DNA of 38,478 nt from a virus, in the IMG/VR virus record IMGVR_UViG_3300042260_000401, positions 1 through 38,478 of that record. One strand, written 5' to 3'. Positions 3,818 to 19,112 of the stretch are shown piece by piece. Under the pieces are notes generated by a model. That model was not told where the DNA came from and did no database searches. It saw nothing but the letters and a program-made list of their open reading frames with translations. How positions within the stretch are numbered: the stretch's first letter is position 1; each line of letters starts with the position of its first letter. The position numbers and the translations under genes were made by a program.

Positions 3818-5878
3818 TTATGCAAACGCGGAAGTCGGAGTAAATAAATTACCCGCTTTAGCTTTATTCTCACCACTACCTTTAAGGTCGTTCATCATTC
3901 TTTCAGTTCGACTATTTCCTTGGTAAATTGCACTTGCAACATCAGATTTAGACAACATATCCATAACAAAACTTTCCATACCAACAGGATTTACATTAAC
4001 ACTGATAGACCCGTCAACTTTAACTGTACCTGTTTCAGGTATTGGTGGTGTTGCGTTGTTAGTATTAATAGTTGAATTAGGTAATTGTCCTGGTGTTATT
4101 GTGGCGTTTGGTGTTATTGTAGCGTTTGGTATCACGGTTTGTACATTAGAACTATTAACAGTTTGACTTCCCGATAAACCATTTAACGCAGTATTAATTT
4201 GTTCTTTAACGGTTTCAGTCATTCCTGTTAACATACCACTACTAAGAAGTGTTTTAAGAGCGGTCACATCAACATTACCACCCCACATCTCCTGAGATTC
4301 TGAAAAGTTTTGTGGAACATTACCAACGGCCCCTTTAATTTGTTCGTAAGCCGCTTTACCACCTGACATTATTTCTTGTCCAGCACCTGCAACATCACCT
4401 TTACCAAGTTTATCAAACGATTTACTAAGAACGTCTGTTAACTTTTGAATATTCTTTGATATAGATTCTACGTGAATTTGATTTTTATCATCAGCATCTC
4501 TTTGTAATCCGATAGTTTTATTAATGGTTTCTTGTCCTGTCGCAACTATTTTTCCAAGACTTTGAATGTCTTTAACAAAACTAGGTTGTGTTGCCACCGC
4601 CATTCCTACAACCCCTTTTCTTGCGGCGATTAAACCTTCAATATTTTTTAAAATACCGTTAGCTTCCAACTGCATTTTTGCGGGACTCGCCAATTTTTCA
4701 TTAGTCGCTTTAATTTCATCTAAATCGGTTTTACTAATCTCAGAAACTAATTTTTCGTCACCAGTTGCGGTTTTAATAATATATTGACCTTCAAACTTTC
4801 CTCCCTTTTCACCAAGTTGGGCCATACCCGCAATCATTTTTCTCGAATCTTCATCAGCAAATTCAGGATTAAAGGTAATTTCCCTCATTTTTCTATCAAG
4901 GTCACCAGCATTCATCGCCCATTTAGCAACTTCTTCATTAGACATACCCAATTCTTTTGCAATCTCCCTTAACTGTCCTTGGGCCCCAGGTAATATTCGA
5001 ATACTTTTAGTTTGTTCGTCAAAATATGTCATTGATTTTAATGCCTTACCAACCTCTTCTTGTAGTTTGGCAGGGTCATTTCTTGACATATCCATTAGTT
5101 TATATGGGTCAAGTAAACTAGATACTTGAACTCCTAACCTTTGGAAAGCCGCTGACATTTGAACCGCAGCATCAGGTTCAAATAATTTATCGGCTAAACC
5201 TAAAGTTTTACCCATATCAATTCTTAATAAAGATGCTTGAGCCGCCATCTTGGCCATACCTTGTACTCCTCCATCAAAGTTGTACAAAGCCATTTTACCC
5301 ATCTGGCCTTCTAATTGTTTGTATACGGATTGTGATGTCACACCTAATTCTTTTGCGGAATTAAGAATACCCGTCATTTCATTACCAATATTATTAATTC
5401 CATATCCCGCATTTGCGAACATAGGAATCATTGCAGCGGCCTTAGCTCCAGCGTTTTCACTAGCACCAGCAACTAACGACCCTGCGGCATATAATTCTTT
5501 ATATGACTCGGTATTTAAACTTGATTGTGTCTGTAAACCTTCAATTACCCCTTTTTGAATTTTTGCAACGTCCGTTAAGTCACCACCTAAAGCCCTAACT
5601 GAAGGTGTAGCATCTCTTAAAAGGTCACGAGTATTTTGAGCCATTTGATGACTACCCGCAAATAGTCTTGATACCGAGTTAACAGTCGACTCAACAGTTT
5701 CGATTGAACCTTTAATTTCGTTAGCAAAACCACCTAATTCTTTATTCGCATCGGTCATCGCCTTAATAATCGACTCAAGACCAGGTAATACCTCCAACTT
5801 AACTCTAGACGCCGCCTCGTTTTGTTGAGTTAAAGCATCTAAATCCTTTTGGTTATCATTCTTACCACCTTGTAACAT
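3818..5878 (-). CDS. Tape-measure-like tail protein
   Basis: This 686-residue protein is Ala/Gly/Lys-rich and mostly helical in appearance. The N-terminal 120 residues look like amphipathic helices (LGGFANEIKGSIETVESTVN region). A small-residue-rich hydrophobic segment lies near residues 130-170, and long charged helical stretches follow. The C-terminal 130 residues are different: low-complexity, with a repeated NATITP unit and Pro/Asn/Thr-rich sequence. It lies directly downstream of the gp26-like gene and its overlapping small ORF, the usual place for a tape-measure gene. T4's tape measure gp29 has 590 residues, so length is compatible with a slightly longer tail. No catalytic motif is visible. 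Another internal tail or baseplate protein remains possible. Confidence 0.6.
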   Translation of the reverse strand: MLQGGKNDNQKDLDALTQQNEAASRVKLEVLPGLESIIKAMTDANKELGGFANEIKGSIETVESTVNSVSRLFAGSHQMAQNTRDLLRDATPSVRALGGDLTDVAKIQKGVIEGLQTQSSLNTESYKELYAAGSLVAGASENAGAKAAAMIPMFANAGYGINNIGNEMTGILNSAKELGVTSQSVYKQLEGQMGKMALYNFDGGVQGMAKMAAQASLLRIDMGKTLGLADKLFEPDAAVQMSAAFQRLGVQVSSLLDPYKLMDMSRNDPAKLQEEVGKALKSMTYFDEQTKSIRILPGAQGQLREIAKELGMSNEEVAKWAMNAGDLDRKMREITFNPEFADEDSRKMIAGMAQLGEKGGKFEGQYIIKTATGDEKLVSEISKTDLDEIKATNEKLASPAKMQLEANGILKNIEGLIAARKGVVGMAVATQPSFVKDIQSLGKIVATGQETINKTIGLQRDADDKNQIHVESISKNIQKLTDVLSKSFDKLGKGDVAGAGQEIMSGGKAAYEQIKGAVGNVPQNFSESQEMWGGNVDVTALKTLLSSGMLTGMTETVKEQINTALNGLSGSQTVNSSNVQTVIPNATITPNATITPGQLPNSTINTNNATPPIPETGTVKVDGSISVNVNPVGMESFVMDMLSKSDVASAIYQGNSRTERMMNDLKGSGENKAKAGNLFTPTSAFA

Positions 5879-5892
5879 AAATAATTTTTATT

Positions 5893-5899
5893 ATAAATA
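5893..5899 (-). promoter_or_regulatory. Candidate promoter element TATTTAT
   Basis: Sense-strand TATTTAT lies 14 bases before the tape-measure-like ATG, in the spacing seen at several other genes of this window. It is followed by an A/T-rich leader without Shine-Dalgarno sequence. Confidence 0.45.
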
Positions 5900-5905
5900 G
5901 ATTGA

Positions 5906-6082
5906 CTAATTATTTTTTGGAGTAATTTCTTTAACAAACTGGTCAATTATATATCTCCGTAAATAAACGGGCATAGAAAGAAAGTCTGTATACGACACAT
6001 TTAAGTGTTTAGTACAGACATAATATTCCCAAGATTGGGTTTCTCGATAATTAGAAGAAAGGCCGAAAAAACTCCACCCCAA
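5906..6082 (-). CDS. Short overlapping +1-frame ORF, possible frameshift extension of the gp26-like protein
   Basis: A 58-codon reading frame overlaps the last 32 bases of the gp26-like gene in its +1 frame and runs to TAG at 5908-5906, just before the tape-measure-like gene. It has no ATG or GTG at its head; only TTG at 6082 could start it. The product reads like real protein, with Trp/Tyr-rich segments (ETQSWEYYVCTKHLN, MPVYLRRYIIDQFV). Tail genes upstream of tape-measure genes in many tailed phages make a chaperone and a frameshifted longer form. Here a GGGG run (6080-6077) lets a Gly tRNA on GGG re-pair after a +1 slip, and a TTT TTT CGG stretch follows. T4 has a small gp51 working with gp26, so it may be the gp51 counterpart. 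Independent TTG initiation is the alternative. Confidence 0.5.
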   Translation of the reverse strand: MGWSFFGLSSNYRETQSWEYYVCTKHLNVSYTDFLSMPVYLRRYIIDQFVKEITPKNN

Positions 6083-6806
6083 AGGCTATATTCGCATATA
6101 CCTCTTTTCCTGACGGGGCGTTAACTCTTCTGACTAAGTCTAGTCTTGGTTCATTTTCCTCAACAAAGTTTCTGATAAACTTAGCGTCTGATATAGGTAA
6201 AGAATCAATGGTTTGTGTTATAAACGCAACATCCGAATTACCATCAATTTCCACAACCATTTTATTTAATTTCCAAGTTTGTTTTGGGGCAATTCTACCA
6301 ACAGGGTATTGGTCGGCCATTTTATCCAACTCACTAAGTTCTCCAAATGATAATGGTTTTAATTTTACGGTAGAATTTGACTTTGGTAATTGAACTATGA
6401 AATAACCCTCATCATTGGGTTTTTCTTTAGTTTCTTTGATGTATAACTCATCTAATAAGATAGTTGTCTCAAATTTTTTGTTAGTGTCAGGGTCGGTCAA
6501 TGTGATATTATACTCAGGTCCGAACGCACTATTTCTTAAAAAGATAAGAATTGCTTCTAAATCCCCCTGTAATAATTCGTCAGGTCTTAAATCTGGCTCA
6601 TATAATTTATTACGTAATAACGTAATAACCAAACCATCTTTACCTATACTGTCACCTGCCATTAAGATGTTTTCATCAGCTGCGGTAAGATAACCTACTT
6701 TAACTGATTTCTTTTTATTTTTGTAAAATACTCCTCCTGTAGGTAGTTTTACCACATCGTGTGGTAAAGAGAAGTTTTGTTGTCCATATTGTTGTGTTGT
6801 ATCCAT
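6051..6806 (-). CDS. 26: gp26-like baseplate/tail-assembly protein
   Basis: The 251-residue product resembles the T4 gp26 baseplate family (208 residues in T4): an N-terminal LPTGGVFY segment, then a basic strand, LTAADENIL, an acidic DLRPDELLQGDLEAILIFLR region and the FGPEYNITLTDPDT strand. These form the recognisable family core in residues about 15-130. The remainder (residues 130-251) is helical with an acidic stretch and ends FFRPFF. It lies between the tail-tube gene and the tape-measure-like gene. In T4 gp26 is needed for the central baseplate hub; the position here fits that or a tape-measure chaperone role. The end of the gene overlaps a +1-frame ORF that may extend it. Family assignment is by recall of motif order, not by search. 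Confidence 0.65.
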   Translation of the reverse strand: MDTTQQYGQQNFSLPHDVVKLPTGGVFYKNKKKSVKVGYLTAADENILMAGDSIGKDGLVITLLRNKLYEPDLRPDELLQGDLEAILIFLRNSAFGPEYNITLTDPDTNKKFETTILLDELYIKETKEKPNDEGYFIVQLPKSNSTVKLKPLSFGELSELDKMADQYPVGRIAPKQTWKLNKMVVEIDGNSDVAFITQTIDSLPISDAKFIRNFVEENEPRLDLVRRVNAPSGKEVYANIAFGVEFFRPFF

Positions 6807-8393: not shown

Positions 8394-11300
8394 TTAGATA
8401 TTGTCAAATGATGCACCTGTTGGTGTAATCAAGAACTCAATATCGATGAATTCTAACGCTTTAGTTGGTTTGATATAAATCTTACCTACTAATTGGTTTT
8501 TATCTAAGTCTTCAGGAGATGAAGATACCGTTACACGGAAATCGTATAAACCTCTGTCTCTTCTGATAGCGTCTAAGATAGGATTAACCGCATCCAAGAA
8601 ATCTTGTCTAACTTTCGCGTCGTTTTGTTCAAACAGTAATCTAACCGCCACCGCTGAAATCAATTTACGAGCTTGTAATAACAATCTTCTTACGTTGATT
8701 CTATCAAGAGCGGACTCTCTAATTTGTAGAGTTTTATTACCCCAAATTACTGTACCAACATCAGAGAAGGTTGCGATTGGGTTAAGTCTACCTACATATA
8801 AAGTATCTCTATCTTCTTGTGTTAATTTACGTCTTGCTTTAATTGAGTTTACAAGACCTCTTGTGTAACCCGCAGATGCGAACCAAGGGAACGCGATGTT
8901 ATCGGTTAAAGCTAAGTTTCTTGTTACCTCCGCAGTTGCAGGAATGTAAATTTGTGTGTTATTAACAGTATCACGAGTTAATACCCAAGGGTAGTAAGTC
9001 GCCGTGTAGTTAGAGTCAATACCTGTTTGTTCTAAGTTATCTACCGCCTCTTGTGGGAAAATCAAATCTAAACTATCAGTAGTAGAAGGTACAAACATAT
9101 TAAAGTCAGGAGTAGTACAGATGTATAATGAATCCGCTCTATCGTACTCAATCATTTCAATAGCTTGTTCAACTAAGTTACTATTATTTACATAATCAAT
9201 ACCTGGTGTTACGAACACGTTAATGTTCACCGCTTCAGGGTTTGAGAATGTTTTTTGACCTAATAGGTATGCGTAGTAGTCAGTATTTGCCCAATCTTGA
9301 GTATTATCTCCAACAGTGATACGTTTAAACATACCTGTACCTGTTGCGTTTGGATATCTATCTGAGTAACAAGCTCCCGCTAAATAACCTGAAGAACCTA
9401 CTTGGAATCTATCAGAGTTTGTACGGTATTCTCTATAAACGTCCCATCCATCGAAACCTCCGTTAACCATTAATGAGAATTTTCTCGCGTATAATCTATA
9501 ATAAGGGTTATTAGCATTTGTTGGGTCGTTTCTGAATTCAGCATCACCAACTGCGAATGCCGTTCTACCTGAAGTTGCAAATAAATCAGAAATTTTAACT
9601 ACAGTAGCTCCTGAGTCCATATGGAATCCTTTAGTCAAGTAAGACCAATCTTGTAATATTGGGTCACAAGTAGTACCTAAATTTTGTTTACCAACATATT
9701 GGAAGAAGTCTAAATCATAACCAGCACCCGCCGCGGTAGATAAACCTAAGTAAGTTCTTCTTACATTGTCACCCGCACTAATTGCTGGATTATCTTGACC
9801 ATTACTATAACCAAATGGAGGGTTAAAAATAACTTCACCAGGGAAATCGTATTTAGTTTTATAAACAGGGAACGGAGATTTTACTGATTCGTAGTTTCTG
9901 AAAGTATACCCTTCAAAACCACAAGGTAATGAATCTTTCGGTGCGTCTTCATTAATTTCAACCATCACAAATTTAGAGTTCAATGCGTATTCCCCATCAG
10001 CCGTACCAATTTTTTTAGCCACGAAATTATTTAGATTAGGGTCCATAGAACAGTTAGTGAATTTTTCTAACACAACAGGTGCGTCATCAGTATCATACCA
10101 ATCACGGATAACAACATCGAATGTTTGATTTCCGAATGACATATTCATAATTGAAATTTTCAATTGGTCATTTGCCGAATTACCGTCAGCTATTGAGATA
10201 AATTTAAATAATCTGTAAACTTTAGTACCTCTTAATTCAGACACCAACCAAGGTGATTCAGGTGTTTGATATCTTTCACCATAGTATCCAATACTTGAAG
10301 AGTTATTACTTCTTGATTCTGGTGTAGAAATTAATTCCGCTCTTAATCCTCTAATATAACCTTTCTTAAATGCCCAATTCAACATACTTGAGAATGTCTC
10401 CTCAACAAATAATGGAACCTCAGTTCTTGGTTTTGCAAAATTACTTCCACCAAATACTTTTGGTAAGTAAGTCGCATCCGACTCTTGTAATGAAGTTTTA
10501 AATACAAACGTTTTACCTTCATCATTTGTCACATTAATTGCGAATGGTGCGTATGGGTTTTTCTTAACCGCAGAATAACTACCTGTAAAGTCTAATGTAA
10601 CCGCACTTAACGCACTAACTTCATAAGTTGGTCCGTCGTGAGTAGTATCATAGGTTGTTAAACCTCTTGACCTTAAAGTCGACACAATTAAATTATTGTA
10701 GTTACTGTAAGAAGTACCTGTATAGTAATAAATTTTACCGTGAAGGGTACCTGTAAAACAATCAGGTTGTGTTGTCGTAGTCGTAGTTATTGGTGAAGTA
10801 GTTGTTGTGGTAGCACAAGGATTTAATGTAGTCGTTGTTGTTGTAACAGGAACTGTTGTTGTTGTCGTTGTTGTACCTGTTTTAGGTAACATAACCAACT
10901 CTGAAACTACTGTCCAAAAAGACATACCTGAATAACTATCACCACTAAAATTATCAAATAATGAGTAATACCAAGAATCGTTATATGATGAAGAGAAATC
11001 TGTATCCGCTTCATTTACACTTGGTACGTTTAATATGTTATTTGCGTCTGTAAATACAGGTGATAAAATATCATAATCGATATTATCAATACTACCCCAA
11101 TAGTTGATTGAAGTACCACTCAAACTTGGTTGAGCAAATATTGATAATAATTGTTGGTTAATGTCAGTTTTTAAAGTTGACACCCCACCGTTAAATTTAG
11201 TGTATTGGTTGTTGATAATGTTTTGAATTTCATCAGGGAAATTAGTTACATATGTAATAGAACCGTCTTGGTTACTACATCCTGTGAATTCAACATCGAA

Positions 11301-11744
11301 ACTAAGTGATACACCTGTACAAGTAATGTCACAAGTATTATCATTATAGTTAGGAACACTAGCACAAACCTCATCCATTTTAATCGTTGTAGGGTCTACG
11401 TTGGCAATTGTTTGAATTGACCAAGAAGGACCCGCATCGTATCCTGATAAACCTAATACTCTTGTCATAAACATTTGATTAGATTGTTGTAGATATGATT
11501 TTGCAATATACGCCGATTCGTACTTAGGGATTTGTGTGTTTATAAATTTTTCAGGGTTCGTTCCCCCGAAATAAGTTTGGAACTCATCGTAGCTACTAAT
11601 GAAGATAGGTTCAAAAGCGGGACCTTTTAAAGCCTCACCTACAACCCCTAATGTAGTAACACCAACACTTTGAGTAACAAAGCTTAAGTCTCTTTCTGAT
11701 GTGTACACTCCTGGTGACACGAATACTTTACTGTTTGTTGCCAT
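8394..11744 (-). CDS. 18: Tail sheath protein (gp18-like) with Thr-rich insert
   Basis: The 1116-residue product has the sheath hallmarks: N-terminal VFVSPGVYTSERDLS, and a C-terminal domain with the PWFASAGYTRG, ALTDNIAFPW, VIWGNKTLQ and RRLLLQARKLISAVAVRLLFEQND segments shared by contractile sheaths (T4 gp18, 659 residues). It should polymerise around the tube and contract on infection. It is about 450 residues longer than T4's; the extra length lies in the first 600 residues, including a Thr-rich low-complexity stretch at residues about 288-326 with Cys residues close by and a following FTGTLHGKIYYYTG segment. Such inserts in sheaths are usually on the outer surface. A TATTTAT motif lies 33 bases before the ATG. 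Confidence 0.93.
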   Translation of the reverse strand: MATNSKVFVSPGVYTSERDLSFVTQSVGVTTLGVVGEALKGPAFEPIFISSYDEFQTYFGGTNPEKFINTQIPKYESAYIAKSYLQQSNQMFMTRVLGLSGYDAGPSWSIQTIANVDPTTIKMDEVCASVPNYNDNTCDITCTGVSLSFDVEFTGCSNQDGSITYVTNFPDEIQNIINNQYTKFNGGVSTLKTDINQQLLSIFAQPSLSGTSINYWGSIDNIDYDILSPVFTDANNILNVPSVNEADTDFSSSYNDSWYYSLFDNFSGDSYSGMSFWTVVSELVMLPKTGTTTTTTTVPVTTTTTTLNPCATTTTTSPITTTTTTQPDCFTGTLHGKIYYYTGTSYSNYNNLIVSTLRSRGLTTYDTTHDGPTYEVSALSAVTLDFTGSYSAVKKNPYAPFAINVTNDEGKTFVFKTSLQESDATYLPKVFGGSNFAKPRTEVPLFVEETFSSMLNWAFKKGYIRGLRAELISTPESRSNNSSSIGYYGERYQTPESPWLVSELRGTKVYRLFKFISIADGNSANDQLKISIMNMSFGNQTFDVVIRDWYDTDDAPVVLEKFTNCSMDPNLNNFVAKKIGTADGEYALNSKFVMVEINEDAPKDSLPCGFEGYTFRNYESVKSPFPVYKTKYDFPGEVIFNPPFGYSNGQDNPAISAGDNVRRTYLGLSTAAGAGYDLDFFQYVGKQNLGTTCDPILQDWSYLTKGFHMDSGATVVKISDLFATSGRTAFAVGDAEFRNDPTNANNPYYRLYARKFSLMVNGGFDGWDVYREYRTNSDRFQVGSSGYLAGACYSDRYPNATGTGMFKRITVGDNTQDWANTDYYAYLLGQKTFSNPEAVNINVFVTPGIDYVNNSNLVEQAIEMIEYDRADSLYICTTPDFNMFVPSTTDSLDLIFPQEAVDNLEQTGIDSNYTATYYPWVLTRDTVNNTQIYIPATAEVTRNLALTDNIAFPWFASAGYTRGLVNSIKARRKLTQEDRDTLYVGRLNPIATFSDVGTVIWGNKTLQIRESALDRINVRRLLLQARKLISAVAVRLLFEQNDAKVRQDFLDAVNPILDAIRRDRGLYDFRVTVSSSPEDLDKNQLVGKIYIKPTKALEFIDIEFLITPTGASFDNI
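10767..10880 (-). repeat. Thr-codon repeat tract inside the sheath gene
   Basis: Runs of five to seven Thr codons (mixed ACA, ACT, ACC, ACG) are separated by short VPV, LNPCA, SPI and QPDC segments. Mixed codon use within the runs suggests retention of the amino acid rather than pure slippage. Similar I-T6 units occur in the adhesin at 32787-32943. Confidence 0.8.
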
Positions 11745-13072: not shown

Positions 13073-13621
13073 TTAGTATTTTAAAATTTCGTTAATAACG
13101 AATAATTTATTCTTTTGATTAATCATATCGACCTCTTTTGCTCTATATACAGGTTGTTCTGTTGATTTATAAACAAAACTGTCGTATTTGTAAGGGTTAT
13201 ATGTTACTACATTGTCGTTCGATTCCTGAGGCATATTTTCACAAGGATATTTACAATAATCAACTAAGTCACCGATAACAAAGGCGTGTACATTTTTACT
13301 TTTCTCACTTCTAACTTTTTCTTTCCCACCCTTTCTAACTCTGAACTCAACATCACTTAATTTAACATAATCCGCGTGAAGTATTACTTTTGATTTATAG
13401 GTAACTGAAAACGTATGTTTATGTAAGTTATAATAAACCATAACTCGTTTACCTTTAAAATCTTCTTCAGAATTATCGTGACCACACTTATGACAAATAT
13501 AAGGGTCATTACCTCCGTCTGATAAATCCCAAGACCAACCGCATTCATCACAGATAACCTCATCGTTTGTGATGGTTTCCATTATTAAATTTTTTTGTCT
13601 TTCACTAATTAATATTTTCAT
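13073..13621 (-). CDS. Zinc-ribbon protein of unknown function
   Basis: The 182-residue product begins MKILISERQKNLIME, a short basic N-terminus. Residues about 24-47 contain a CDECGWSW ... CHKCGH pair, a four-cysteine zinc ribbon. The middle (residues 58-120) reads VMVYYNLHKHTFSVTYKSK ... KNVHAFVIGDL, which I remember from small uncharacterised phage and bacterial proteins but cannot name. The C-terminal part is Tyr/Lys-rich. Start ATG at 13621 overlaps the stop of the upstream gene by one base, and its stop is one base from the gp15-like start, so the three genes form one operon. A role in neck assembly or nucleic-acid binding is possible; no function is shown. Confidence 0.6.
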   Translation of the reverse strand: MKILISERQKNLIMETITNDEVICDECGWSWDLSDGGNDPYICHKCGHDNSEEDFKGKRVMVYYNLHKHTFSVTYKSKVILHADYVKLSDVEFRVRKGGKEKVRSEKSKNVHAFVIGDLVDYCKYPCENMPQESNDNVVTYNPYKYDSFVYKSTEQPVYRAKEVDMINQKNKLFVINEILKY

Positions 13622-14177: not shown

Positions 14178-15956
14178 ATGACTGAGTTGGAAATTAATAC
14201 TTCAAACAATACACCGTTAATAGAAAGAAAAGCACTTGAAATACTAGAGTCGTATTCAGGTGCAAATAACTATTTGTTAAGGTTAAAGAGACAACAAGAC
14301 CTAAATAAGAAGTTTTACCCCACAAGAGCCCAAGCAGAGTACATCGTTACTTTTCACAATATAGTACCTAAAGTCGCCAAAAAATGGGTTGACCTTGACC
14401 CCTACTTTGCTCAAAAAATTGCCGACGAAAAATTATACACAAAAGTACCTGAACAAATATGGATTGAAAAACTTTTAGTTGAAAAAGATAAGTCGTACCA
14501 TATTTGGGGAAAAATATTCGAAAACGAAGAATTACACGAAATATGGTTACCAAAGGGTGCTATCATTAAAACACATAACGTTGAAAAAGTTGAGATTGAT
14601 TATTCAAAATATTCACACAGACCTCCTCTAAATCATCAGAAAGAGGCAATTGAAAAGTTAGTCGGTTGTAAAAGGTTTATACTTGCGGATGATATGGGAT
14701 TGGGTAAAACGACCTCAACAATTATCGCCGCCTTAGAAACAGGTGCCAAAAAAATATTAATAATATCCCCCGCGTCTCTTAAAATTAACTGGATGAGGGA
14801 AATTCAAAACTACACCGACAGAAGTGTATATATTTGTGAAGGTAAAAATTTCTCAACTGAACACGACTTCGTAATTATCAATTATGATATTGTTAAAAAC
14901 TTCTACGATATTAAAGACAAAGAAAATAGTCCAATATATCAAATGAATTTTGATTTAATTATTATTGATGAAGCACATTACTTACAAAACGCACAAGCAC
15001 AAAGAACTAAATTGGTTAATAGTTTTGCGAAGAGGGTTGATAGGTTGTGGTTACTAACAGGAACCCCTCTAACATCAAGACCGATAAATTATTTTAATTT
15101 ACTAAACCTTATCGAATCTCCTGTGGCACAGAATTGGATGGCATATGCTATCCGTTATTGCGAGGGATATCAATTTAAAGCAGGTCCTAGAAAGGTATGG
15201 AATGTAAAAGGGGCCTCTAATTTAGAAGAACTACGAGATAGGACATCAAGACAAGTCTTAAGAAGATTAAAAGAAGACGTGTTAGATTTACCTGATAAAA
15301 TTATCACCCCCGTTTATTTGAGATTAAAATCAAAATTATACGAGGGATTAATGGGAGAATACTTTGATTGGTACCGAGCCAATTCTGAAGAATCCTCATC
15401 ATTAACATTACAATTTTCAAAACTAACAAAAGTTAGACAGATTATTGCCGAAGAAAAAATATCAAGCACAATAGAGTTGTGTGAAAATATAATAGAACAA
15501 GGAAAGAAAGTTATTGTTTTTACTAACTTTACTAACTCACTTCAAAAAATAGTAGAACATTTTGGAAAACAATGTGTTTTCTTAGATGGAAGTTGTAGTC
15601 AACCACAAAGACAATTCGCGGTTGACCAATTTCAAACCAATGATAAAATAAACGTTTTCGTAGGAAACATTAAAGCCGCAGGTGTTGGTATCACATTAAC
15701 ATCCGCAGAGGCCGTCATAATGAATGACTTATCTTTCTTACCATCAGACCACAGTCAAGCCGAAGATAGGGCTTACCGATATGGTCAGAAATCAAACGTT
15801 TCGGTGTATTACCCAATATTTGAAAATACGATTGAAGGGGTTATTTACGATATTCTATCAAAGAAAAAATCTATTATAGAAACAGTTATGGGTGACAACC
15901 TTGATAAGGCAGATTTTGTAGAAGAAGTTTTGAATTCTATAAACAATAGTAGATAA
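14178..15956 (+). CDS. SNF2-family DNA helicase/translocase
   Basis: The 592-residue protein has SF2/SNF2 motifs in order: Q-like LNHQKEAIEKL, Walker A DDMGLGKT with Lys177, motif Ia ISPASLKINW, DEAH at 264-267, LLTGTPLTS at about 292, and in the C-terminal lobe TNFTNSLQKIV, AAGVGITLTSAEAVIMND and the SNF2-type motif VI QAEDRAYRYGQ at about 527-537. It closely resembles SMARCAL1/HepA-type remodelling translocases rather than replicative helicases. Residues 1-150 are an N-terminal region with a basic, possibly DNA-binding sequence. T4 uses the SF2 helicase UvsW for fork and recombination-intermediate remodelling; this may be the functional counterpart. It is transcribed divergently from the gp14-like gene, with 41 bases between the starts. 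Confidence 0.9.
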   Translation: MTELEINTSNNTPLIERKALEILESYSGANNYLLRLKRQQDLNKKFYPTRAQAEYIVTFHNIVPKVAKKWVDLDPYFAQKIADEKLYTKVPEQIWIEKLLVEKDKSYHIWGKIFENEELHEIWLPKGAIIKTHNVEKVEIDYSKYSHRPPLNHQKEAIEKLVGCKRFILADDMGLGKTTSTIIAALETGAKKILIISPASLKINWMREIQNYTDRSVYICEGKNFSTEHDFVIINYDIVKNFYDIKDKENSPIYQMNFDLIIIDEAHYLQNAQAQRTKLVNSFAKRVDRLWLLTGTPLTSRPINYFNLLNLIESPVAQNWMAYAIRYCEGYQFKAGPRKVWNVKGASNLEELRDRTSRQVLRRLKEDVLDLPDKIITPVYLRLKSKLYEGLMGEYFDWYRANSEESSSLTLQFSKLTKVRQIIAEEKISSTIELCENIIEQGKKVIVFTNFTNSLQKIVEHFGKQCVFLDGSCSQPQRQFAVDQFQTNDKINVFVGNIKAAGVGITLTSAEAVIMNDLSFLPSDHSQAEDRAYRYGQKSNVSVYYPIFENTIEGVIYDILSKKKSIIETVMGDNLDKADFVEEVLNSINNSR

Positions 15957-16001: not shown

Positions 16002-17669
16002 ATGAAAAATCTAGTAAATAAGATTGAAGCCTTAAAAGAGGAGGTTACACTAGTTGAAACTAAAAAAACCCAAAAATTCTTTTTATCTGAAATGAAAAGA
16101 ATCGGTATTGAAAAATTACCTTACTCTTACACATCCCTTAAACGTTTTATCGACCCTGAAACAATGGACATCCATTATAATAAACATTATAAAGGTTATG
16201 TTGAAAAATTAAATTTGGCGTTAGATAAGAAAAAATTTGGTGATTTGGACTTAGAACAAATTGTAAAAACAATTAGTCGTTTTAATAAAAACGTTAGAAA
16301 TAACGCAGGTGGTGCTTATAACCACGCACTTTTTTGGAAAATGTTAACACCGATGCCGCAAAAACCTAAAGGTTTAATTCTTAAAAAAATAGAGACTGAG
16401 TTTGGTACTATTGGAGCGTTTAAAAAGAAATTTGATGAGATTGCGAAAGAAAGATTTGGTTCAGGTTGGGTTTGGTTAGTTGTTACTAAAAATAATTCAT
16501 TAAAAATTATGTCAACCCCAAATCAAGACAACCCATTAATGAATGACGTTAAAGACGGTGGTTATCCTATTTTAGGATTAGATTTATGGGAACACGCATA
16601 TTATTTAAAATACCGAAACAAAAGAGATGAATATATTAAAAACTTTTGGACTGCGGTTAACTGGGAATTTGTCGAAAAGTTATATAAAATGAAAATTGAG
16701 ACAAGGATTGATGAGGAAATTGTAATGACTCAATTAATGAATTCCTCTAACAAAGATATTCTAAGCGAAGACGAAATAAAATCCCAAAGTTGTTCAACAA
16801 GTGAGGAACAAATGTTTAAAAAACTATTATTTCCCCCTACGGATTTATTAGAGAAATCGGATTTATACGGTAAATTTAAAAAAGAATATATCTCAGGATG
16901 GATGGACATACTTAAAAAATCCTACCCTGAAAATTGGAAAGAAAAAAATTCTATTTTCGTTGGTCACGAAGCTGGACTATATAGTAAACAAAATGTTAGG
17001 TCATTACTTATGAATTTAACATCATCGTATACCGCATTTTGTATTATTCATAAAGACGTTAACGAATATCTTAAAAAGAATAATCAAAACACTATAGAAT
17101 ATGGGGATAACCCAAATACTAATATAGTTGAATTAAGGAAGTTTTTCTCAGTACTCGACGGATTAAGGTCTAACATATTCAAACGAGGTGAACAATCTAA
17201 CACTTTAAAACAAATTGGTGGTGTTTTGAAAAAAACAGATTGTTTAGGTAAACGAAACGAGGAGGCGGCTATGAAAATTATAAATCAAAATTATGGTGAA
17301 GGTGCTTGTACAATCGTTTCAGGTGGAGGTATGACCAAAGATATGTTATCGGGGATTGACGCAACCGTAGTTATGGATGGTAAAGAATATACTTCACAAA
17401 TTAAACCTTTTAAAAATATTTTTGAAAAAGATGGTTATTTTGTGGTCCAAGGGTCCTCAAGTACCCAATCATATAATAAAGTTAATTTACTTATTTTTGT
17501 TAATGTTAAAACAAAACAAGTAAGAATCTATAAAACCCCAAAAACCAGAATTTACCAAGGAAGTTATTACATTCCAAAAGAAAACGAGGTTGCAACCATA
17601 TTTGCGAAAGGAGAATTGGAATTAATCGACTGTAACAAATATTTATCTGAAAACATTATATGGGAATAA
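16002..17669 (+). CDS. Superoxide dismutase domain fused to a PD-(D/E)XK nuclease-like domain
   Basis: The 555-residue product holds a complete Fe/Mn superoxide dismutase domain at about residues 36-227, after a 35-residue basic helix. The four metal ligands are in place: His58 in MDIHYNKHY, His108 in GGAYNHALFW, and Asp194 and His198 in LDLWEHAYYLKY. Gly104 and Gln175 (NQDNPL) are the Mn-type combination. It should convert superoxide to peroxide and oxygen if folded and metallated. Residues 230-555 are unrelated; a segment from about 415 reads KRNEEAAMKI, then GIDATVV (Asp453) and YTSQIKP (Gln466, Lys468), followed by a strand NLLIFVNV. This E...D...QxK layout is that of PD-(D/E)XK nucleases, though I cannot name a family. 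The stop overlaps the gp13-like start by 10 bases, so the two are co-translated, suggesting a virion or assembly role. Confidence 0.85.
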   Translation: MKNLVNKIEALKEEVTLVETKKTQKFFLSEMKRIGIEKLPYSYTSLKRFIDPETMDIHYNKHYKGYVEKLNLALDKKKFGDLDLEQIVKTISRFNKNVRNNAGGAYNHALFWKMLTPMPQKPKGLILKKIETEFGTIGAFKKKFDEIAKERFGSGWVWLVVTKNNSLKIMSTPNQDNPLMNDVKDGGYPILGLDLWEHAYYLKYRNKRDEYIKNFWTAVNWEFVEKLYKMKIETRIDEEIVMTQLMNSSNKDILSEDEIKSQSCSTSEEQMFKKLLFPPTDLLEKSDLYGKFKKEYISGWMDILKKSYPENWKEKNSIFVGHEAGLYSKQNVRSLLMNLTSSYTAFCIIHKDVNEYLKKNNQNTIEYGDNPNTNIVELRKFFSVLDGLRSNIFKRGEQSNTLKQIGGVLKKTDCLGKRNEEAAMKIINQNYGEGACTIVSGGGMTKDMLSGIDATVVMDGKEYTSQIKPFKNIFEKDGYFVVQGSSSTQSYNKVNLLIFVNVKTKQVRIYKTPKTRIYQGSYYIPKENEVATIFAKGELELIDCNKYLSENIIWE

Positions 17670-18772
17670 TAGCAGAACCAAATAGAACAAAATTATATAC
17701 AAGAGTTAAACACCTATTAGGTGCACCTCTTAGAAGTGTTGAATTAGAGGATGAAATGATGGACTCATTATTGGAGTTGTCTATTGGAGATTATTCTCAA
17801 TACATCCAAGATTGGTTAATTGAATCACAATGGTCAGCACTACAAAATCTTAATCTTGACGAACAATCGTTAACAAGAGCTTTCATAACAAGAAGTTTGG
17901 ACTATGAGACAAGATACACTTACGCCTATTCTAAAATTGTAGGTTTACAAGCTGGTGGAGATTGGGTATTAAAAAAGGATTATATTGTAACTGAAAAAAA
18001 TCAACAACTTTACGAAATTCCTAAAGGTAGAGAGATAAATGAACTTTTATGGTTCACTCCCGCAACTATGAATAACGTTATGTTCGACCCATTCGCATTT
18101 GGAGCTATGGGAGGTCCAGGTCTTGGTGGTGTTGGAGGTTTTTCTCAGTTAGGGTATTCAGGTTCATATACTATGATGCCAGCATTCGATATGTTATTAA
18201 GAATGCAAGAGACAAATATCCAAAGACGTATTATTGGTAGTGACTTGACATACAGAATAACCGCATTACCTGATGGTAAAAAAATGATTCACCTAATGAA
18301 TACTCCTGGTGGTAAATGGGATTTTGGTAGTGCTAATTACCATAATGGTAAAGTATGGTATTGGTATTATGATGTTGATGGAGCGGATAGAGATAAATGT
18401 TTAAGTGACAATCCTGATATCGTAAAATTACCTTCAGATGTTCCTTTGGATGAAATCTCTTGGGAGGATTTAAATAACCCCGCACAACAATGGATTAGAA
18501 GATGGTTTATTGGTTTGTGTAAAGAGGCGTTAGGACGAGTTAGAGGAAAATATAGTGGTAATCTTAAAACACCTGATAGTGAACTTACTATGGATTATAC
18601 GAGTTTATTAACAGAGGGTAAAGACGAAAGAGCAAAACTACAAGAGGAATTAATGGCACGTTTAGAAAGATTAAGACCTGAAAAACAAATAGAGAAAGAC
18701 GCATTAATTGCTGAAAATCTAAATAAGGCTTTGAAATTTAGAGCAATGCCAAGACAAATATACGTAATTTAA
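17660..18772 (+). CDS. 13: Neck protein (gp13-like)
   Basis: The 370-residue protein resembles the T4 gp13 neck family (309 residues): an N-terminal LYTRVKHLLGAPLRSVELEDEMMDSLLELSIGDYS region, a helix with WLIESQW, then the YEIPKGREINELLWFTP strand, and a C-terminal helix QQWIRRWFIGLCKEALGRVRGKYSG followed by DYTSLLTEGKDERAKLQEELMARL. gp13 sits under the portal and with gp14 joins head to tail. A Gly-rich loop (residues about 150-175, GAMGGPGLGGVGG) is an extra feature. It starts within the last codons of the superoxide dismutase fusion gene. It is on the strand opposite to the gp14- and gp15-like genes, unlike the single T4 13-14-15 cluster. Confidence 0.75.
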   Translation: MGIIAEPNRTKLYTRVKHLLGAPLRSVELEDEMMDSLLELSIGDYSQYIQDWLIESQWSALQNLNLDEQSLTRAFITRSLDYETRYTYAYSKIVGLQAGGDWVLKKDYIVTEKNQQLYEIPKGREINELLWFTPATMNNVMFDPFAFGAMGGPGLGGVGGFSQLGYSGSYTMMPAFDMLLRMQETNIQRRIIGSDLTYRITALPDGKKMIHLMNTPGGKWDFGSANYHNGKVWYWYYDVDGADRDKCLSDNPDIVKLPSDVPLDEISWEDLNNPAQQWIRRWFIGLCKEALGRVRGKYSGNLKTPDSELTMDYTSLLTEGKDERAKLQEELMARLERLRPEKQIEKDALIAENLNKALKFRAMPRQIYVI

Positions 18773-18776
18773 TTTT

Positions 18777-19112
18777 ATGGCAATAATAAGAAGTACACCT
18801 TCGGAAAGAATAATAAATGGACAGGTCATAGTATCATCTGAGAACGCTTTAGTTTCTGAAACACAATTCAGAACTAAAGGTGAGAGTACTGTTGTTATTA
18901 AAGATGTGGAATTTTCTAAAGTTATTTTAGACCACTCATCAACAGACCACATAGTTATTAAGGCTTTGACTAAAGTACTAATTCTACCAAGTTCGGGTAG
19001 AATTGATGAAGAGTTCGACGAAATTCTAATAGATAAAGGCGCTTGTGTCGAATTTAAATTTATATCAGGTAATTGGTATATTTTAAGTTCAGACGGATTA
19101 AAACAATCCTAA
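18777..19112 (+). CDS. Small beta-rich phage protein, unknown
   Basis: The 111-residue product begins 4 bases after the neck gene stop and is probably in the same transcript. It is rich in beta strands and ends with GACVEFKFISGNWYILSSDG, a type of ending I associate with small virion or fibre proteins of tailed phages. No enzyme motif is visible. A decoration or head-tail accessory protein is possible from its place next to the neck gene. Confidence 0.65.
   Translation: MAIIRSTPSERIINGQVIVSSENALVSETQFRTKGESTVVIKDVEFSKVILDHSSTDHIVIKALTKVLILPSSGRIDEEFDEILIDKGACVEFKFISGNWYILSSDGLKQS

Follow-up and report, generated by a model that had tools for sequence, protein, structure and literature searches.

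A widespread phage gene joining an Fe/Mn superoxide dismutase to a predicted PD-(D/E)XK-fold nuclease, with conserved prohead-protease-like sites at both edges of the dismutase

The stretch of DNA analysed here, called the window, is an IMG/VR virus record of 38,478 nucleotides (IMGVR_UViG_3300042260_000401). One of its genes encodes an N-terminal part that, judged from conserved residues and fold, is an Fe/Mn superoxide dismutase (SOD) with a complete active site, predicted to have dismutase activity. It is followed in the same frame by a nuclease-like domain. Many members of this phage group carry the fusion, which the window alone could not reveal. The nuclease is the constant core and the SOD is a strongly conserved yet optional cassette. 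Short sites of the type cut by T4-like prohead proteases lie at both edges of the SOD, and we consider it somewhat probable that the product is an internal-head polyprotein that is split into SOD and nuclease within the prohead, both leaving with the DNA at ejection. We infer its timing, packaging, cleavage, ejection, activities and targets from the gene and its relatives. Coordinates are collected in Table 1.

Table 1. Features of the SOD-nuclease locus in the window, with the evidence for each
Feature	Position	Strand	Evidence
Zinc-ribbon-like + PF25735 protein	13073..13621	-	Leader MKILISE-RQKNLIME-T, of [IL]-x-E type; zinc ribbon below Pfam cut-offs
DNA helicase gene, upstream, conserved neighbour	14178..15956	+	phrog_62, 1.3e-109; synteny
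SOD-nuclease fusion gene	16002..17669	+	555 aa plus stop; ORF and translation, Pfam, alignment
N-terminal leader, residues 1-30	16002..16091	+	M1 and I8 nearly invariant; low model confidence over residues 19-40
Predicted prohead-protease site 1, L28-S29-E30, cut before M31	16083..16091	+	[LIM]-x-E in 65/65 (from best 80 of 597)
Fe/Mn SOD module, predicted mature residues 31-238	16092..16715	+	Ligands H58, H108, D194, H198; Pfam, PDB, alignment, model
Predicted prohead-protease site 2, I236-D237-E238	16707..16715	+	[LIM]-x-E in 65/65 (from best 80 of 597)
Possible third site, L254-S255-E256, immediately N-terminal to the nuclease	16761..16769	+	Like [IL]-x-E in many, not all, of 65 linkers
Predicted PD-(D/E)XK-fold nuclease module, residues 262-555	16785..17666	+	Model m397729a88205; fold matches
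E420, first acidic residue of the nuclease motif	17259..17261	+	65/65; invariant in 53 sequences
D453 of G-x-D	17358..17360	+	64/64; invariant in 53 sequences
Q466-x-K468	17397..17405	+	64/64; invariant in 53 sequences
Neck / head-tail adaptor gene, downstream	17660..18772	+	phrog_211, 4e-9, part of the protein; synteny
Small conserved gene 3' of the neck gene	18777..19112	+	Synteny; without PHROG match

The open reading frame starts with ATG and lacks internal stops. Its 3' end overlaps the start of the neck gene at 17660, and the 10-base overlap with a gp13-like neck gene reported in an earlier note on this DNA, along with the position beside that gene, was confirmed. The fusion gene lies between the helicase and neck genes in 24 of 27 drawn loci, with two further ORFs there in L141. 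Two of the other three (L032 and L033) stop at the contig edge and the third, L082, belongs to another phage altogether (uncultured phage record LR756501, 735 kb), in which a stand-alone relative of the nuclease domain lies at 5686-6612. In L141 (3244-5920) a stand-alone nuclease gene is flanked by an HNH-like gene, recognised by eye, and by a second nuclease paralogue. The location, in the neck operon and not the head-core operon, suggests that the fusion gene is expressed late together with the neck gene. Elsewhere in the window, the tail sheath protein (8394-11744, minus strand) is 1116 aa long, about twice the length of the matched profile (phrog_23, 496 positions), and judged by that length probably carries a large insertion.

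Relatives were collected by scanning viral contigs. The best 80 of 597 were kept, and the counts that follow describe the closest relatives only. Identical proteins were merged, which reduced 79 to 65 with the window included; L033, L034, L081 (the window itself) and L082 lie outside that set. Both halves are in one open frame at 78/80 loci (best 80 of 597), the frame of L020 ending at the contig edge. In the remaining 2/80, L033 and L034, the reading frame is broken at a run of A into two that overlap. The SOD and nuclease frames of these two loci split within 8810-8860 at a run of nine A, as seen in L034. The split may reflect a sequencing error, a true mutation or slippage that yields SOD alone alongside the fusion. 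The fusion therefore does recur in other phages, as the earlier note had proposed to check, and an assembly join or a chance frame was rejected on the same count.

The SOD half was examined by Pfam, by a PDB sequence search, by alignment and by structure modelling. Sod_Fe_N matched residues 37-115 (2.2e-22) and Sod_Fe_C residues 123-226 (3.4e-39). The best solved relative in the PDB search was the MnSOD chain 6gsc (E 6.6e-61 over residues 38-230), and residues 34-233 of the model superimposed on Sphingobacterium MnSOD 5a9g with Z 26.1 and an rmsd of 2.0 Å over 199 residues. Model confidence was modest for the first part of this half (56 to 93 by 10-residue blocks beyond residue 40). His58, His108, Asp194, His198, Gly104 and Gln175 are invariant in 65/65 distinct sequences (from the best 80 of 597 relatives), as are H62, Y66, Q175, E197, Y201 and G192 in the same set. 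H62, Y66, Q175, E197 and Y201 we take to be second-sphere and dimer residues. The defining features of a SodFM protein were thus found, namely the two-domain fold, in both Pfam domains and the model, and three His and one Asp as ligands. The complete Fe/Mn SOD with four ligands and Gly104/Gln175 described in the earlier note is borne out, the fold included. A passage in PMC10172142 gives as a rule for manganese preference a C-terminal Gln together with a Gly two positions ahead of the Asp ligand. By this rule Q175 and G192 suggest manganese, as a tendency and not as proof of metal use.

Conservation differs sharply along the chain. Median identity to the window is 74% (minimum 69%) for the SOD part and 30% (minimum 25%) for the nuclease part; the leader stands at 38% and the linker at 24%. 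The contrast between SOD and nuclease argues for a working dismutase beside a fast-changing nuclease, although the likeness of the SODs could also be kept by exchange of SOD cassettes between phages. With ligands and second-sphere residues invariant and the SOD so much better conserved than the nuclease, we disfavour the suggestion that a former enzyme now serves a structural purpose. When species genomes were scanned with the fusion, 48 loci came up, with SOD identity of up to 51%; the scan was built on peptide patterns of the query, and close relatives are favoured. By record title 41/48 are Bacteroidota, and the others are Halomonas, two Dadabacteria, Dojkabacterium, a relative of Verrucomicrobium and two titles without a phylum.

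Because SODs filled the fold comparison of the full-length model, the nuclease module was modelled separately (m397729a88205; mean pLDDT 91.1, pTM 0.86). The best fold match was archaeal Hjc (2wcw; Z 7.6, rmsd 3.7 Å, 104 residues), with NhoI, I-Ssp6803I, SPARDA, DpnI, PvuII and RecU among the further matches. The first 31 rows by Z were all nucleases, and these, like the enzymes just named, we take to have the PD-(D/E)XK fold. A Z below 8 is modest and not decisive alone; the E-D-QxK motif adds weight to the assignment of a PD-(D/E)XK fold. The E...D...QxK pattern seen in the earlier note holds across the family, with E420 in 65/65 and D453, Q466 and K468 in 64/64 distinct sequences (from the best 80 of 597), the lower total reflecting the end of L020 at its contig edge. 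An alignment of 53 sequences from several classes, reaching down to 18% identity to the window, has as invariant columns, in domain numbering, S73, F132, G155, E159, G182, D186, G190, D192, Q205, K207 and Y230. The motif at 420, 453, 466 and 468 is a strong nuclease signature at the level of sequence, and the domain is predicted to cleave DNA.

The C-terminal domain shares with Hjc and other PD-(D/E)XK nucleases the fold and the E-D-QxK motif. It differs from Hjc in its low identity (12% to 2wcw) and in about 140 additional residues that form a helical N-terminal half, and its motif has Gln where Hjc carries Glu. The PDB profile search reached a best E of 0.2. Pfam searches of 36 C-terminal sequences found no consistent family, the commonest being PF20290 (ABC-3C middle component 4) in 2/36 (best E 1.9e-4), with one match each for the other 24 families shown. 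PHROG and Pfam scans of paralogues and relatives returned no nuclease family, and phrog_5018, of unknown function, matched one of them at 0.0021. By fold, the matches are to nucleases; a match to a non-nuclease family, which the earlier note had considered fatal to its proposal, was not what emerged. A cellular origin of the domain was also tried and found no support, as 15 pattern matches in a scan of genome contigs with the C-terminal alignment yielded 0 confirmed; that scan is pattern-based and leaves absence unproven.

The nuclease is present in 11/11 large contigs and the SOD in 8/11, each time as a single copy that shares its frame with the nuclease. The three contigs without it (G005, G006 and G007; 272-318 kb) have no SOD elsewhere in their records, which may be incomplete. 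Four of the 11 have a second nuclease copy. A scan with the C-terminal half found 25 loci with the nuclease and without the SOD, and the seven that were drawn occupy the same helicase/neck position. In a tree of the neck protein with 81 distinct rows, 70 with SOD and 11 without, at least two changes of SOD state are forced. The SOD-less L110 and L111 are nested in an SOD-bearing clade, and the L110 protein retains EMKKIEIEKL, the piece that leads into the SOD in its relatives. Read at the protein level, this piece is a trace of SOD loss. Aligning the DNA of L110 and L035 paired the leader with the last part of the SOD gene and gave no clean result; the deletion edges were taken from proteins only.

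The constancy of the nuclease bears on the main rival explanation, that the C-terminal domain is a head-completion or packaging nuclease, a counterpart of T4 gp4 that works on DNA at the portal or neck, with the SOD as a passenger or oligomerisation module of an uncut protein. T4 gp4 is described in part of PMC7824862 as a REase-fold DNase required for packaging. The fusion gene adjoins the neck gene, its nuclease occurs in 11/11 large contigs, and only 1/11 has a recognisable gp4 family (phrog_218), so the role may be vacant. No sequence link to gp4 was seen, however, the C-terminal half lacking a PHROG match at E 0.1, phrog_218 included; paralogues of the nuclease occupy other operons; and the nuclease diverges strongly (median identity 30%) compared with the neck gene (mean column identity 0.84). 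The conserved cleavage-type sites described below would also be left unexplained. We regard this explanation as unlikely.

A third scan extended the range of architectures. It found proteins of 710-715 aa, eight of them distinct, that consist of an HExxH module, the SOD and the nuclease (L317, L318, L319, L320, L323, L324, L325, L327 and L328; the start of L325 matches another, and L316 is split). The gene lies between the helicase and neck genes in seven loci (L317-L320, L325, L327 and L328), and L323 and L324 reach contig ends. The best match of the HExxH module in two Pfam scans (E 0.0094) misses the cut-off. The variable make-up typical of polyvalent proteins was therefore found at one locus, as nuclease alone, SOD-nuclease and HExxH-SOD-nuclease. 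A further HExxH-like part (HEFLH) occurs in L008 (4248-5630, minus strand), where a 461-aa frame joins it to a zinc-ribbon/PF25735 module with NISE-S between them. The zinc-ribbon gene of the window is fused in some relatives to a nuclease paralogue with further [IL]-x-E motifs between the modules. A zinc-ribbon-like/PF25735 gene with an [IL]-x-E leader is also present in L036, L028, L044, L051, L023, L071 and others, and several stand-alone versions have no [IL]-x-E at their end.

The edges of the SOD fall in low-confidence linkers of the model, residues 19-40 and 235-261, and each contains a conserved tripeptide. E30 and E238 are both present in 65/65 sequences with L, I or M at position -2 (from the best 80 of 597). 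Among 30 representatives less than 80% identical to one another, both are kept in 30/30, position -2 is only L, I or M apart from one gap at site 1, the middle position is filled by 9 different residues at site 1 and by 6 at site 2, and the glutamates are written with GAA as well as GAG. Between residues 228 and 263, no column other than E238 is invariant in these representatives. Both sites are kept in 8/8 distinct three-module proteins, as (L/I)-(V/M)-E and (I/L)-K-E, and the N-terminal leader is absent from them. Five SOD-less proteins of the neck locus that were inspected have a like leader and an [IL]-x-E before the nuclease.

As a control, glutamates kept in 97% of rows or more, with [ILM] at -2 kept to the same degree, were sought in six neighbouring families, L020 being left out of the fusion row. 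Flank identity in the fusion is 0.50 at E238 and 0.72 at E30, against 0.96 at E197 in the SOD active site. Such sites in the control families have flank identities of 0.79 to 0.93, and one of the six families has none. The contrast is partly expected, because the control families are more conserved overall (mean column identity 0.72-0.84 vs 0.63).

A candidate protease is encoded in these phages. A gp21 relative (PF03420) was found in 9/11 large contigs and a gp23 capsid gene in the same 9, and the N-terminal region of the capsid protein carries (F/H)LINE↓A in 9/9. This position agrees with the T4 gp23 cleavage site. T4 gp21 cleaves after L/I-x-E, as stated in a section of PMC9026906. The mark of a T4-type internal head protein, an [LIM]-x-E after an N-terminal leader, was found in 65/65 sequences (from the best 80 of 597), where cleavage is predicted, and the leader may be a capsid-targeting propeptide. 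L/I-x-E is a short motif, which counts against reading these tripeptides as processing sites.

The residue after site 1 is Met in 63/65 (from the best 80 of 597), unlike the Ala that follows the capsid site, and Met31 could be a leftover or serve as an internal start. Were it a start, one gene would give a long and a leaderless form, and E30 and E238 would be structural. The presence of Met31 in 63/65 of that set and in 8/8 distinct three-module proteins fits this explanation, which accounts for neither E238 nor the hydrophobic residue at -2 of both sites. It appears very improbable. The same sites bear on the idea that the fusion is a late cytoplasmic enzyme, an unprocessed bifunctional protein whose SOD shields phage DNA from superoxide as its nuclease degrades host DNA. 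Catalytic residues are kept in both domains, as such an enzyme would need, but the invariant [LIM]-x-E at both SOD edges and the leader kept in SOD-less versions are unaccounted for, and we think it quite unlikely. The earlier note had left the choice between a virion protein and an early protein; the conserved prohead-protease-like sites favour the virion protein and leave the early one disfavoured.

Our preferred explanation, the internal-head polyprotein, can be set out in steps. The fusion would be made late, along with the neck gene, and its N-terminal leader would bring the chain into the assembling prohead. A gp21-like protease would then cut after E30, E238 and perhaps E256, leaving a free Mn-type SOD and a nuclease inside the capsid, and the two would be ejected together with the phage DNA. 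As the constant payload, the nuclease would probably target DNA of the host or of rivals, or else DNA ends or junctions. Its optional partner, the SOD, might remove superoxide while infection is only minutes old or inside the particle, in oxic waters. Besides the shortness of the motif and the Met after site 1, several points weigh against the internal-head polyprotein, among them that the three-module proteins have no leader, that the gene is in the neck operon, not with the head-core genes, and that the explanation gives no account of how a packaged nuclease spares the phage DNA.

Leaders of similar type were also sought on other proteins. Starts of the form MK..[IL][TNS]E occur on 11/197 genes of G001 and 25/343 of G003, whereas 500 shuffles gave means no higher than 1.25 and never more than 4; these matches include repeated families and are not independent. 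The excess in G002 is unconvincing (3/197 vs a shuffle maximum of 4). A loose leader pattern was present in 25/46 distinct proteins of the third scan, a raw count with no control. Among the many such genes of G003, the short leaders MKK.I.LTESDL...[IL].E and MK(Y/F)LITES[KQ] recur on several small proteins. Directly downstream of its gp21-like protease gene G003 has a nuclease paralogue (L208, 2360-3316) that starts MKITISEGQ. A polyphosphate kinase 2 (PF03976, 2.4e-71) with the leader MRNLVTE is encoded in the closest relative of the window (L224, 9111-10187), possibly another packaged enzyme. More generally, these phages, taken as Bacteroidota phages of lakes, may have a modular payload system in which HExxH, Mn-type SOD, nuclease and zinc-ribbon modules are strung between prohead-protease sites, targeted in one event, separated in the capsid and injected. 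We put this forward tentatively, with the balance slightly against it.

In G001, the relative nearest to the window, a gene for ribosomal protein bS21 (L215, 2624-2857; PF01165, 29.4 bits vs a cut-off of 27) is encoded on the other strand from gp21. The bS21 gene is likewise opposite the prohead protease in the bS21 phages, which in the portion of PMC9723584 that deals with them have predicted Bacteroidota hosts, are readily detected in oxic lake samples and express core structural genes highly. The bS21 gene of G001 suggests that the phage group of the window and the bS21 phages are related.

If the internal-head polyprotein is real, superoxide threatens a phage at entry or in the particle enough for an antidote to be carried in the capsid, and multi-enzyme payloads can be loaded as one precursor and cut by the phage's own maturation protease. 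A conserved [IL]-x-E at module edges would then be a simple signature by which to find the packaged cargo of uncultured phages, since their internal proteins are difficult to identify by other means. It might be the first phage seen to carry an antioxidant enzyme in its particle and deliver it; no earlier phage case was found among the titles and abstract openings listed in the literature searches. Nor did these mention a SOD-nuclease fusion in a phage. Among 50,697 records none covers 80% of the fusion, though records very near the window may be missing from that set. Members of the family are already public: one database entry of 501 aa, named 'superoxide dismutase [uncultured Caudovirales phage]', is homologous to the C-terminal model. 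To call this an undescribed system, as the earlier note did, is overstated, for its logic matches that of packaged multidomain phage proteins; the pairing of SOD with nuclease is absent from the titles and abstract openings listed. The parts and the logic are known from T4 internal proteins, polyvalent proteins and the PBCV-1 SOD, and it is the combination and the cassette layout that do not appear among those titles and abstract openings.

Virus-encoded SODs have precedents. Chlorovirus PBCV-1 encodes a Cu/Zn SOD (A245R) that is reported in a passage of PMC7019647 as the late, virion-packaged product of a viral gene. A245R belongs to the Cu/Zn family and to an algal virus, unlike the fusion, which is of the Fe/Mn family, joined to a nuclease and found in phages. 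Fe/Mn SODs of the same superfamily do occur in large phages, in PA5oct and its relatives and in Vibrio phage 2.275.O; these SODs are about 26-27% identical to the fusion, with the match limited to the SOD part. Polyvalent proteins (Iyer et al. 2017, PMC5512222), as treated in sections of that paper, resemble the fusion in joining several enzyme domains of variable make-up in one phage protein. They often carry a peptidase domain, as some relatives of the fusion carry an HExxH module. The word 'superoxide' occurs 0 times in the main text of that paper. The fusion has fewer domains than polyvalent proteins, and its site pattern suggests a prohead protease and not self-cleavage. The T4 internal proteins IPI-IPIII, which have a capsid-targeting sequence, are cleaved by gp21 and are ejected, share with the fusion an N-terminal leader, an L/I-x-E type site, a gp21-type protease and a gp23-type capsid in the same phages, and optional payloads. 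T4 also supplies the precedent for loading, in its own internal proteins and in foreign nucleases packaged in its head, as described in parts of PMC3012670 and PMC9026906. Unlike IPI-IPIII, the fusion has a longer leader, two or three modules per chain and enzymes as its predicted cargo.
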